Assembly: GCA_030148225.1 (NCBI GenBank)
Contig: JASBTX010000033.1
Coordinates: 62,001 to 126,000 of the forward strand
Reading direction: 5' to 3'
Source: Paracoccaceae bacterium
GTDB taxonomy: Bacteria > Pseudomonadota > Alphaproteobacteria > Rhodobacterales > Rhodobacteraceae
DNA length: 64,000 bases
This document shows, in pieces, positions 8,755 through 63,323 of the stretch. The translations under genes were made by a program, and so were the position numbers. The notes under the pieces are model-generated. The model ran no database searches. It was not told the origin of the DNA and was given only the letters and a program-made list of their open reading frames with translations. Position 1 is the first letter of the stretch, and every line of letters begins with the position of its first letter.

Positions 8755-10194
8755 ATGAAGGACGCGCGCAACTTTTACATCAACGGCAAATGGGTCGCAC
8801 CCATCGACGGTCGGGATTTTCCGGTCATCGACCCCTCAACCGAAGAGGCGATTGCCACAATCTCGCTTGGCGGGGAACAGGATACGGACGCCGCCGTCGC
8901 CAGCGCCCGGGCCGCATTCCCGACATGGCGTAAATCAACCAAGGCCGACCGGCTGGAACTGATGAACAATATCCTCGACGTCTATCAGCGCCGGGCCGAT
9001 GATCTGGCGCAGGCGATCAGCGACGAGATGGGCGCGCCCATCGACATGTCCCGCACTCAGCAATCCGGCACGGGTTCCTATCACCTCAAGGCCTTCATCG
9101 ATGCCCTGACGGATTTCGGGTTCGAAGCCCCGCTCAGGGCTGCCAATCCGGACACACGCATCATTCACGAACCCATCGGCGTCTGCGCCCTGATCACACC
9201 ATGGAACTGGCCGATGAACCAGATCGTCCTCAAGGTGATCCCGGCGCTGGCTACGGGCTGTACGATGGTGCTGAAACCGTCGGAACAGTCGCCGCTCTCG
9301 GGTGTCCTGTTTTCCGAAATCATGCACGAGGCAGGGGTTCCGACCGGTGTCTACAACATGCTTAACGGCGATGGTCCGGGCGTTGGCAGCCAGCTTTCGC
9401 GCCACCGCGATGTCGATATGGTCAGCTTTACCGGATCGACCCGCGCCGGAAAGGCGATCACCATCGCCGGGGCCGAAACGATCAAACGCGTCAGCCTCGA
9501 ACTGGGGGGCAAGGGGGCCAACCTCGTCTTTGCCGATGCGGACCCCAAGGCGGTCAAGCAGGGGATCATCCGCTGTTTCAACAATACCGGCCAGTCCTGC
9601 AACGCGCCCACGCGCATGCTGGTCGAACGCGCGCGCTATGAACAGGCCGTGGACGAGGCGCGCGCCGCTGCCGAGGCGACCAGCGTCAACGCTGCTGCCG
9701 AGGCCGGTCGCCATATCGGGCCGCTGGTGTCGGAAATGCAGTTCAACAAGGTTCAGGATCTCATTCAGAAAGGCATCGACGAAGGGGCCCGCCTTGTCAC
9801 CGGCGGCGTCGGGCGGCCCGAGGGCCTGAACCGTGGCTATTTCGTTCGGCCAACCGTTTTTGCTGATTGCACGAACGACATGCAGATCATGCGCGAAGAG
9901 ATCTTTGGTCCGGTCCTGTCGATGATGCCCTTTGATAGCGAGGAAGAGGCCATCGCCATCGCCAATGACACCGATTATGGCCTGACGAACTATATCCAGA
10001 CCACCGATCCTGAAAGGGCACGCCGCGTCGCGCGCGAACTGCGCTCGGGCATGGTGGATATCAACGGCAATGCGCGCGGATCGGGTGCCCCCTTTGGCGG
10101 GATGAAGCAATCGGGCAACGGGCGCGAAGGCGGCGTCTGGGGGCTTGAGGAATTTCTGGAGATTCGCGCCATCGGCGGCTGGCCGGTTGACTGA
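8755..10194 (+). CDS. NAD(P)+-dependent aldehyde dehydrogenase
   Basis: The 479-residue ALDH-superfamily enzyme oxidises an aldehyde to a carboxylate. The visible motifs are the nucleotide-binding TPWNWP (Asn at about 151), KPSE (Lys at about 174), FTGSTRAG, the general base Glu in LELGGK (about 249), and the nucleophile Cys in NTGQSCNAPTR (about 282). The start at 8755 has AAAGGGA upstream and gives the normal length. It is the first gene of the + strand catabolic block, 146 bases ahead of the Rieske oxygenase gene, from which a hairpin separates it. In that setting betaine aldehyde or a semialdehyde released by the oxygenase is a plausible substrate, but the sequence does not fix it. Confidence 0.92.
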   Translation: MKDARNFYINGKWVAPIDGRDFPVIDPSTEEAIATISLGGEQDTDAAVASARAAFPTWRKSTKADRLELMNNILDVYQRRADDLAQAISDEMGAPIDMSRTQQSGTGSYHLKAFIDALTDFGFEAPLRAANPDTRIIHEPIGVCALITPWNWPMNQIVLKVIPALATGCTMVLKPSEQSPLSGVLFSEIMHEAGVPTGVYNMLNGDGPGVGSQLSRHRDVDMVSFTGSTRAGKAITIAGAETIKRVSLELGGKGANLVFADADPKAVKQGIIRCFNNTGQSCNAPTRMLVERARYEQAVDEARAAAEATSVNAAAEAGRHIGPLVSEMQFNKVQDLIQKGIDEGARLVTGGVGRPEGLNRGYFVRPTVFADCTNDMQIMREEIFGPVLSMMPFDSEEEAIAIANDTDYGLTNYIQTTDPERARRVARELRSGMVDINGNARGSGAPFGGMKQSGNGREGGVWGLEEFLEIRAIGGWPVD

Positions 10195-59657: not shown

Positions 59658-60490
59658 TCGCCCAGCACCGCGCGCCTGAGCCCGTCATCAACCACCGGCC
59701 TTTGGCCGAACCAGCGTTCAAATCCCGGCGCCGCCTGAAAAAGCAACATGCCCAGCCCGTCAACCGTGGTACAGCCATGGGCCCGCGCATCCATCAGGAA
59801 CTTGGTATCCAGCGGTGTATAGACAATATCGGTAACGACGGCCTGCGGCGACAAACCATCCAGCGGAATGCGTATCTGACCCTGCCCCGACATGCCAAGC
59901 GCGGTCGTATTCGCTACAAGCGTTGCGCCATCCATCGCATCGCCTGCTTGAACCCAGTCATAGACAACCACGCGGCGCCCGAATTCGCGCTGCAATTGAT
60001 CGGCGCGCGGCCGCGTTCGGTTGGTCAGCCGAATCTCGGGTGTTCCCGCATCCAGCAGGGCCGACAGCACCGCCCGTGCCGCACCGCCCGCACCAATCAG
60101 CGTGGCCGGCCCCGACCGTGCAGACCAGCCTGGGGCGCTTTGACGTAGGTTCTCGATAAACCCGTAACCATCTGTATTGTCGCCATGAATCTTACCGTCA
60201 TCGCGAAAGATCAGCGTATTTGCCGCACCGATCAGCGCTGCGCGATCCGTCACGTGATCGGCCAGTTCCAGAACACGCTCTTTATGCGGGATGGTGACGT
60301 TGACACCCTTGAAACCCATCCGGGGCAGCATTTTCAGAACATCCGCCAGTTCATCCGGGGGAACGTCAATGGGAATGTAATACCCCTCGATCCCGTATTT
60401 CCTCAGCCAATAGCCGTGCAGAACCGGTGATTTGCTGTGCGCAATAGGGTGTCCCAGAACACCGGCCAGCGGAATACGTCTGTCTGTCAT
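59654..60490 (-). CDS. aroE: Shikimate dehydrogenase
   Basis: The 278-residue NADP-dependent enzyme catalyses dehydroshikimate to shikimate. HSKSPVLHGYWL, NVTIPHKE (catalytic Lys), NTDGYGF (Asp) and GAGGAARAVLSAL (nucleotide binding) are present. It is in the maf-aroE-coaE-dnaQ unit with 4-base overlaps on both sides. Confidence 0.97.
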   Translation of the reverse strand: MTDRRIPLAGVLGHPIAHSKSPVLHGYWLRKYGIEGYYIPIDVPPDELADVLKMLPRMGFKGVNVTIPHKERVLELADHVTDRAALIGAANTLIFRDDGKIHGDNTDGYGFIENLRQSAPGWSARSGPATLIGAGGAARAVLSALLDAGTPEIRLTNRTRPRADQLQREFGRRVVVYDWVQAGDAMDGATLVANTTALGMSGQGQIRIPLDGLSPQAVVTDIVYTPLDTKFLMDARAHGCTTVDGLGMLLFQAAPGFERWFGQRPVVDDGLRRAVLGE

Positions 60491-61086
60491 CCTTCAAGTA
60501 TTCCCTTTTGCGTCAGGAACGACAACAGGTCAGTCAGCGGCATTCCAAGAACCGAAAAATAGTCGCCTTCGATTCGTGAAAACAGCCGCACACCTTCAGC
60601 TTCGATCTGATAGCAGCCGACACAGGCACCGATACCGGGCCAGTTTCGGCCGACATAGGCATCAATATAGCCCGGCGACAGCGTTCGCATCGTCATTCTG
60701 ACCGTTCTGACCTGTCGCCAGACCGGCGCGCCATCGTCATAAACCACAGCTGCCGAAAACAGGTGGTGCGTTTTCCCGGAGAGATTTCGGAGTTGTTCTT
60801 TTGCGTCAGTTTGGGACGACGGTTTTTCAAGCAGCTGACTATCACATTCAAGGATCTGATCCGATCCGATCACGATGGATTCCGGGGATTTTTCAGCGAT
60901 CTTGCGGGCTTTGTACTCGGCCAGCGTATCGGCAATATCACGTGCGCGGGCCTGTTCCTGAACCAGCGCCGCTCGGATGGCGTGTTCATCTACTCGCGCT
61001 GGCCGCACGGTGAAATTGACCCCGGCATTCTGGAACATCTTTTGGCGGATTTCCGACATCGAGGCCAGGATGATCGGTTTCGTCAT
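60487..61086 (-). CDS. maf: Maf-family nucleoside triphosphate pyrophosphatase
   Basis: The 199-residue protein hydrolyses non-canonical or pyrimidine nucleoside triphosphates to monophosphates. ILASMSEIRQKMFQNAGVNF at the N-terminus, VIGSDQILECD, DAKEQLRNLSGKTHHLFSAAVV and IEAEGVRLFSRIEGDYFSVLGMPL are family signatures. It is first in the leftward maf-aroE-coaE-dnaQ unit and borders the putative origin. Confidence 0.95.
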   Translation of the reverse strand: MTKPIILASMSEIRQKMFQNAGVNFTVRPARVDEHAIRAALVQEQARARDIADTLAEYKARKIAEKSPESIVIGSDQILECDSQLLEKPSSQTDAKEQLRNLSGKTHHLFSAAVVYDDGAPVWRQVRTVRMTMRTLSPGYIDAYVGRNWPGIGACVGCYQIEAEGVRLFSRIEGDYFSVLGMPLTDLLSFLTQKGILEG

Positions 61087-61487
61087 GGGATAATATTGGG
61101 GTTAACTCTTGTGGAACCATCTGGACTGTTTTCGAACTGTAAACAGGATTTCCGGGAACCACAATTTCCGCTGAATCCATACCCCGCCTGATCACAATCT
61201 GTGCACCTTGGGTAAAAACATCCCCCGAATGTATAATGCGAATTTATCCGTGATACGTCTATAAATCATACAGAAATTTAAGCGCCAGATTTAGTTATTT
61301 ACATAATGAAAACAAATAATTACTCGGTAACCATCAGATTTATCCCCATCGGTGAATTGAATAAATTTCCGGCATCACCAGCTGTGCATGATGATCTTAT
61401 CCCTGTTATCCACTGCCCCTACATCATCAACATCTTTTCTTTCTCTTTTCTTTATTTAAGAGGATAGGACGGAACAGACGGGTTCAT
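61087..61487. other. Candidate chromosomal replication origin (oriC)
   Basis: This 401-base gap carries no gene and separates leftward maf-aroE-coaE-dnaQ from rightward hemJ-rho-mnmE. It is AT-rich in its middle: 61261-61320 has only 13 G/C in 60 bases. Three 8-of-9 matches to the DnaA box TTATNCACA are visible: TTATCCCCA at 61340, TTATCCACT at 61406, and TGTGCATGA (reverse strand) at 61383. Weaker TTATCC-starting matches are at 61244 and 61397. In Caulobacter the origin lies beside the same maf-aroE-coaE-dnaQ-secB order. The promoter of hemJ must also be here, so some AT-richness has another explanation. Confidence 0.6.
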
Positions 61488-61940
61488 ATGACCGATTTGC
61501 TTTTGACAATTTACCCATGGGTCAAATCGCTGCACGTGATCGCGGTGATTTCCTGGATGGCAGGTATGTTCTATCTGCCCAGGCTCTTTGTCTACCATGA
61601 AGAAAGGGTTAAGGCCGGTTCGGATACTGATGATCTGTTCAAGACGATGGAATATCGTTTACTCAAGATTATCATCAATCCCGCGATGACCGCGACATGG
61701 ATCTTTGGCCTGATCATGGTGTTCACGCCGGGGATCATCGATTGGTCGGCGATCTGGCCCTATACCAAGGCCGCGGCGGTTCTGGCGATGTCGGCATTCC
61801 ATGGCTGGCTGGTCACCCGGCAAAAGGAGTTTGCCGATGGCCAGAACCGTTTTACCGGGCGTCAGTACCGGATCGCCAACGAAGTGCCGACGGTGCTGAT
61901 GGTGATCATCGTCATTTCAATTATCGCGCGCCCGTTCTGA
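61488..61940 (+). CDS. hemJ: Protoporphyrinogen oxidase HemJ
   Basis: The 150-residue membrane protein of the UPF0093/HemJ family oxidises protoporphyrinogen IX to protoporphyrin IX in haem synthesis. KSLHVIAVISWMAGMFYLPRLFVYH contains the conserved His. YRLLKIIINPAMTATWIFGL and the C-terminal GRQYRIANEVPTVLMVIIVISII complete a four-helix layout. AAGAGGATAGG lies 16-26 bases before the ATG. It is the first rightward gene beside the putative origin. Confidence 0.95.
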   Translation: MTDLLLTIYPWVKSLHVIAVISWMAGMFYLPRLFVYHEERVKAGSDTDDLFKTMEYRLLKIIINPAMTATWIFGLIMVFTPGIIDWSAIWPYTKAAAVLAMSAFHGWLVTRQKEFADGQNRFTGRQYRIANEVPTVLMVIIVISIIARPF

Positions 61941-62051
61941 ATCAATTGACAGAGTGACGCTGGCGAATTAACTGATCCTCAGCGCCCGTCCGGGTGTCTG
62001 TCTCCCACGAGTTTCACATCGATATCTCTAAACCGAAATGAGAGTGATTTC

Positions 62052-63323
62052 ATGACCTCTGAGCGTGTCAACCTTCGCGATCTGAAAGCCAACAGTCCCA
62101 AGGACCTTTTGTCCATGGCCGAAGAGCTCGAGATCGACAACGCATCAACCATGCGCAAGGGCGAGATGATGTTCTCGATCCTCAAGGAACGCGCCGAGGA
62201 TGGCTGGGAAATATCCGGCGATGGCGTACTTGAGGTGATGCAGGACGGCTTTGGATTTCTGAGATCGCCCGAAGCAAACTATCTGCCGGGTCCGGATGAC
62301 ATCTATGTTTCGCCCGACATGATCCGCACATACTCTCTCAGGACCGGAGATACGATTGAGGGCGTCATACAGGCGCCGGGAGACAATGAACGCTATTTCG
62401 GCATGACCAAGGTCGAGTCGATCAATTTCGAAGAACCTGAGCGCGCGCGTCACAAGGTTGCCTTTGACAATCTCACGCCGCTTTACCCTGATGAGCGTCT
62501 GACGATGGAGATCGAGGATCCGACGATCAAGGATCGCTCGGCCAGAATCATCGATCTGGTCGCGCCAATCGGCAAGGGCCAGCGTTCGCTGATCGTCGCA
62601 CCGCCCAGAACGGGCAAAACTGTTCTTTTGCAGAATATAGCGACATCGATCGAAAAAAATCATCCCGAGTGCTATCTGATCGTTCTTCTGATCGACGAAC
62701 GTCCCGAAGAGGTGACGGATATGCAGCGCTCGGTCAAAGGTGAGGTCGTATCCTCGACCTTTGACGAACCGGCAACGCGTCACGTGGCGGTATCTGATAT
62801 GGTCATTGAAAAAGCCAAGCGTCTGGTTGAGCACAAGCGTGATGTTGTCATCCTGCTCGATTCGATCACACGCCTGGGCCGGGCCTTCAACACCGTGGTG
62901 CCTTCCTCGGGTAAGGTGCTGACCGGTGGTGTCGATGCCAACGCGCTTCAGCGGCCCAAGCGTTTCTTTGGCGCTGCGCGCAATATCGAAGAGGGCGGTT
63001 CCCTGACCATCATCGCCACCGCGCTGATCGACACCGGCAGCCGGATGGACGAGGTCATCTTTGAAGAGTTCAAAGGCACCGGTAACTCGGAAATCGTTCT
63101 GGATCGCAAGGTGGCGGATAAACGAGTTTACCCGGCGATGGATATCCTGAAATCCGGTACCCGCAAAGAAGACTTGCTGGTCAACAAGCTGGACCTGCAG
63201 AAAACCTACGTTCTGCGCCGGATTCTCAATCCGATGGGCACTACGGACGCAATTGAATTTTTGCTGTCAAAGCTCAAGCAAACCAAGACTAATGCCGAGT
63301 TTTTCGACTCCATGAACACCTAA
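62052..63323 (+). CDS. rho: Transcription termination factor Rho
   Basis: The 423-residue hexameric RNA helicase ends untranslated transcripts. The N-terminal domain ([19 protein letters not shown]), the RNA-binding cold-shock-like domain ([32 protein letters not shown]), Walker [13 protein letters not shown], and the C-terminal [23 protein letters not shown] are standard. A 111-base leader precedes it, which in other bacteria is a site of Rho autoregulation. Confidence 0.98.

Follow-up and report, generated by a model that had tools for sequence, protein, structure and literature searches.

Bacterial origins related to the maf-hemJ gap

The chromosomal replication origin (oriC) of Escherichia coli is organized in the order unwinding element, nearest DnaA box or boxes, IHF site and further boxes. 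In Caulobacter crescentus, the genes on the left-hand side of the origin (Cori) presumably run maf-aroE-coaE-dnaQ, as they do at the locus described here. Cori is flanked by hemE and by an RP001-type gene (PPSR), the RP001 of Rickettsia being a gene of the PPSR type, and it is controlled through CtrA sites of the form TTAAN7TTAA. A single IHF site lies within Cori, and a single IHF site stimulates the E. coli origin (PMC4285127). According to the same review, unwinding elements flank the clusters of DnaA boxes and do not lie among the boxes (PMC4285127). The strict rule for the basal unwinding system (BUS) of DnaA boxes plus DnaA-trios, known from Bacillus subtilis, demands a DnaA box with at most 2 mismatches and, no more than 16 b behind it, the start of at least three in-phase 3'-NAN-5' trios (PMC8287927). 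For the Rhodobacteraceae, a DoriC-based analysis with Ketogulonicigenium vulgare Hbe602 has described an oriC beside maf as conserved (PMC4793288), and origins have been predicted with similar criteria for 101 chromosomes of the family (PMC6699656).

Here, we analysed a window of 64,000 nucleotides from a Rhodobacteraceae bacterium, which belongs to a contig of 214,218 b in a draft assembly (44 contigs, 89% complete). Positions are those of the window, whose numbering is extended to sites outside it. The original prediction had proposed a replication origin in the non-coding gap between maf and hemJ (Table 1). This proposal is supported, since the sequence presents the features by which an oriC is recognized, namely a skew minimum (on the contig), a cluster of DnaA boxes, an AT-rich flanking element and parS within a few kb, and the gap is conserved family-wide. 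From the sequence, we consider the gap to be the oriC of this bacterium with a probability of about 0.92. A location beside maf is already documented for the Rhodobacteraceae, and the locus is therefore of a known kind. It is like the DoriC and Ori-Finder origins of this family in its adjacency to maf, its DnaA boxes, its skew minimum and the parAB genes nearby; the gap directly adjoins maf, and nothing essential distinguishes it from the maf-linked oriC of other members. What is new is the inner anatomy derived from 75 homologous gaps, with fixed places for an IHF-like site, a box pair and a presumed unwinding element, as well as the successive disappearance, seen across relatives, of PPSR, hemE and hemJ around an origin that stays put. 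This anatomy yields precise sites that can be tested in laboratory strains of Rhodobacteraceae.

Table 1. Features of the candidate origin and its borders (window positions)
Feature	Position	Strand	Remarks
aroE, coaE, dnaQ	beyond maf	same as maf	left-hand gene order
maf (Maf family nucleotide pyrophosphatase)	60487..61086	-	left border; NCBIfam Maf
Candidate oriC, non-coding maf-hemJ gap	61087..61487		skew; near-constant length in Rhodobacteraceae
Weak left-end DnaA box TTAACCCCA	61097..61105	-	2 mismatches
Weak DnaA-box-like site TTATCCGTG	61244..61252	+	3 mismatches
First low-stability AT-rich segment	61261..61320		position conserved, ~-180 from hemJ; probably the AT arm of the IHF site
IHF-like site AATCTGGCGCTTA	61279..61291	-	1 mismatch to WATCARNNNNTTR; position and orientation conserved in the family
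DnaA box TTATCCCCA	61340..61348	+	1 mismatch
DnaA box TCATGCACA	61383..61391	-	2 mismatches; pairs with the forward boxes on its right
Weak DnaA-box-like site TTATCCCTG	61397..61405	+	directly abuts the box at 61406
DnaA box TTATCCACT	61406..61414	+	1 mismatch; box closest to the presumed unwinding element
Conserved trinucleotide element CCTACATCATCAACATC, DnaA-trio-like	61418..61434	+	CATCATC ~-63 from hemJ in 43/75 gaps
Pyrimidine/AT tract (TTTTCTTTCTCTTTTCTTTATTTAAG)	61435..61460	+	second low-stability segment; probable DNA unwinding element
hemJ (protoporphyrinogen oxidase HemJ)	61488..61940	+	right border; NCBIfam HemJ
rho	62052..63323	+	NCBIfam Rho; followed by mnmE, mnmG, rsmG

GC skew and parS sites around the gap

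A check of the GC skew had been named beforehand, and its outcome on the contig agrees with the prediction. The cumulative skew, which for this genome covers the 214-kb contig rather than the whole chromosome, has its minimum at 61450, within the gap rather than at dnaA (54 kb away), and parS sites lie close by. Over the first 184 kb of the contig, the change point of the skew falls at 62000, with a 95% interval of 47-72 kb; when 10-kb blocks were permuted 2000 times, no permutation matched its strength. The last 30 kb were left out of this test for their different base composition; over the whole contig, including this odd GC-rich end, the change point is weak, 7% of the permutations being as strong. 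In the end region itself (184-214 kb of the contig, 122001-152218 in the numbering of the window and outside it), G+C rises from ~0.60 up to 0.64-0.69 and the GC skew is negative, and the region is either a genomic island or the result of a chimeric assembly join. Two perfect parS sites are found at 64641 and 66528, outside the window and 3.2 and 5.0 kb to the right of the gap, at the starts of mnmG and rsmG (named from the translated sequence). Such a pair, ~1.9 kb apart, adjoins the locus in nearly all relatives of the same family that were examined.

Of three relatives with long contigs, the skew supports the gap as origin in G003 and G013, and does not in G009. The genome G003 is a single contig of 3.56 Mb, in which the minimum of a 400-kb stretch (3475899) and the gap (~3477461-3477847) are 1.6 kb apart and two perfect parS sites lie 3-5 kb from the gap; when its chromosome was sampled coarsely, the skew signs fitted over most of the length, with some noise. 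For G013, the sign of the skew changes clearly at the gap (1181108-1181512), the minimum itself (1163224) being 18 kb apart from it on a nearly flat stretch. Within the 400 kb sampled from G009, 168 kb separate the local minimum and the maf-rho gap, which holds the sole dense cluster of DnaA boxes. This skew switch, in the region of 2.74-2.91 Mb of contig C3 (L144-L152), likely reflects a rearrangement near the origin, perhaps a recent one, the alternative being that the origin has shifted.

A cluster of DnaA boxes common to the family

The three DnaA-box-like sites originally listed for the gap, at 61340 (TTATCCCCA), 61383 (TGTGCATGA) and 61406 (TTATCCACT), are all present, and the motif TTATCC occurs in four copies on the + strand. 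Six sites of the gap differ from TTATCCACA by at most 2 mismatches and two by at most 1; these numbers are reached by 0.9% and 1.6% of shuffles, respectively. The count of six is the maximum per 400-b window on the 214-kb contig, with one tie in coding DNA. A perfect TTATCCACA does not occur in the gap, and for this reason the evidence of its own boxes, which are weaker than the Rhodobacteraceae average, is only moderate; the strength comes from the family comparison. The 75 homologous gaps contain a mean of 2.64 sites with at most 1 mismatch, compared with 0.11 in shuffles (~24-fold), although the gaps are related and enrichment counts of this kind are thereby inflated. Relatives have reverse boxes (GTGGATAA) at the left end of the gap, and many of them carry a reverse/forward box pair beside the right-hand element.

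The 6-mer ATP-DnaA sites of the E. coli type show no enrichment in the 75 gaps, and GANTC is not above chance in our gap or not enriched in the family. A CtrA-controlled origin of the Caulobacter type was rejected, the gap containing no TTAAN7TTAA, in difference to Cori; across the 75 gaps there are 8 such sites against 1.2 expected, a slight excess.

The origin remains in place while neighbouring genes are lost

The genes maf-aroE-coaE-dnaQ on the left and hemJ-rho-mnmE on the right had been described as running away from the gap; NCBIfam names its neighbours Maf, HemJ and Rho. The gap fills precisely the 401 b between two start codons, that of maf on the - strand and that of hemJ on the + strand, and no RNA family was matched in it or in its flanks. 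The 80 best HemJ loci of named genomes all come from Rhodobacteraceae/Paracoccaceae or from drafts labelled at a broader level only; the closest is that of an uncultured Pseudoruegeria (76% identity). The gap measures 364-455 b in 74 of the 77 relatives that have maf upstream of hemJ. The gene order had been called a variant, and this is true relative to Caulobacter, whose hemE and PPSR are both absent at our gap, but among Rhodobacteraceae this order is the usual one (the same 74 of 77 relatives; PMC4793288).

Intermediate arrangements exist in relatives, in which PPSR, hemE and hemH were called by eye from translations and not by family search. Outside the family, in G033 and G039, the box cluster is located between PPSR and hemE, and within the Rhodobacteraceae the locus L190 keeps the order maf-PPSR / boxes / hemE-hemJ-rho; the cluster thus holds the same junction where both genes are still present. 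PPSR has been lost in L220 and hemE in L058, and most Rhodobacteraceae relatives have, like our locus, lost both at the origin. Finally, hemJ is absent between the origin gap and rho in L055 (G009) and L060 (G020), and the origin elements stay. A stepwise loss of PPSR, hemE and hemJ around a fixed box cluster explains the variant gene order; the series thus shows an origin that is retained as the genes around it erode. In our genome, hemE is encoded on a different contig, and PPSR was not detected in the draft.

Two other locations of the origin have to be weighed against these data. The gap could merely contain the promoters from which maf and hemJ-rho are transcribed in opposite directions, which would account for its AT-richness, with the origin a short distance away, such as in the parAB region, and the interval of the skew change point does take in the parS-bearing genes as well. 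This is very improbable, however: no sigma-70-like promoter pair was found in the gap, its length is constant although neighbour genes come and go, and DnaA boxes are concentrated in its homologues far beyond the shuffled rate. An origin adjoining dnaA, as in many bacteria, might be considered because dnaA shares the contig with the gap. The gene lies ~54 kb to the right of the gap, on a steep rise of the cumulative skew, and the scan of the contig revealed no DnaA-box cluster near it. We therefore rejected this location, whose chance is negligible; the minimum of the skew falls within the gap instead.

A probable central bending site and proposed strand opening at the right edge

The AT-rich stretch 61261-61320 was correctly described as having 13 G/C of 60 (78.3% A+T), and it ties for the most A+T-rich 60-mer in the gap. 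Throughout the 75 gaps, two easily melted segments occupy fixed places at ~-180 and ~-45 relative to the first base of hemJ, and this stretch corresponds to the first. Perfect matches to the IHF consensus WATCARNNNNTTR number 22 in the -240..-140 segment of these gaps against 0.9 expected, and 21 of the 22 are on the minus strand; none was found in the other gap segments, and permuted control patterns of the consensus gave 0-4 matches. The assembly encodes ihfA, and ihfB was not found in it at 89% completeness. These counts make a role of IHF at 61279-61291 probable. Since the stretch lies amid DnaA boxes and bears the IHF-like site of the family, it is probably a bending site, which is more likely than a function as the main unwinding element.

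The second segment belongs to a composite element at the right edge of the gap. CATCATC is found in 43 of the 75 gaps, compared with 2.3 expected, at a median of -63 from hemJ; a CCTACA junction stands before it and a pyrimidine tract after it, with TTTCTTT at -53 and low duplex stability at -45. In our gap, the low-stability tract 61435-61460 flanks the box cluster, and the rule on flanking unwinding elements (PMC4285127) favours the right-hand element as the opening place. The element is kept in G009 and G020, which lack hemJ here, and is therefore not a hemJ leader. It thus appears rather likely, as judged from motifs and duplex stability, that the strands open at the right edge, in CCTACATCATCAACATC and the pyrimidine/AT tract (61418-61460). 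With this assignment, our gap shares with the E. coli oriC the order of unwinding element, nearest box or boxes, IHF site and further boxes, in another gene neighbourhood. A single IHF site, if the candidate at 61279-61291 acts as one, would be common to our gap and Cori. The opposite assignment, an oriC opening at the central stretch 61261-61320 with the right-hand element as hemJ promoter/leader or second unwinding site, would agree with the least stable 30-b window being central in our gap and in 38 of the 75. It is nevertheless unlikely, because that stretch sits among the boxes and carries the IHF-like site, whereas the right-hand element is conserved in both sequence and spacing, even where hemJ is gone.

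The right-hand element resembles the B. subtilis BUS (PMC8287927, PMC10721633) in the order box, GC-rich spacer, trinucleotide run and AT tract. In contrast to the 3'-GAT-5' of B. subtilis, the repeated unit is ATC on the strand of the box and 3'-TAG-5' on the other, and in our genome the run is interrupted by AAC. Strict BUS membership was rejected, as TTATCCACT is followed by just two in-phase trios (ATC ATC) and then AAC; the only strict match of the gap relies on an implausible box inside the element. In the family, 55 of the 75 gaps pass the strict rule, compared with ~21 in shuffles. We tentatively raise the possibility, itself rather doubtful, of a Rhodobacteraceae variant of the opening signal, which would be a 5'-ATC-3' run (3'-TAG-5' opposite) and not the 3'-GAT-5' DnaA-trio of Bacillus, placed between the CCTACA junction and the pyrimidine tract, with constant spacing to a box pair and an IHF site. 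If this is true, the ATC run would be a lineage-specific dialect of the single-stranded DNA code read by DnaA.

For opening at the right edge, the following course of initiation can be proposed. DnaA, encoded 54 kb away, would bind the boxes on both sides of the IHF-like site, and IHF would bend the DNA and bring the left and right box groups together. Starting at the boxes on the right (61383-61414), the DnaA assembly may then spread to the strand at CCTACATCATCAACATC and melt the adjoining pyrimidine/AT tract, within 61418-61460, where the helicase would be loaded. Forks would depart both ways, and ParB at the nearby parS sites would segregate the new origins.

Additional DnaA-related sequences

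A second match to the C-terminal (box-binding) domain of DnaA was noted at G000:C16:204583-204789 (L002), its open frame being just 134 aa long. Furthermore, at 9402-9544 of the contig (-52598 to -52456 in the numbering of the window; L033), a perfect TTATCCACA and TCATCCACA lie on opposite strands at a distance of 134 b, and no long ORF covering them is on the list; this box pair is possibly a DnaA-titrating or regulatory site.
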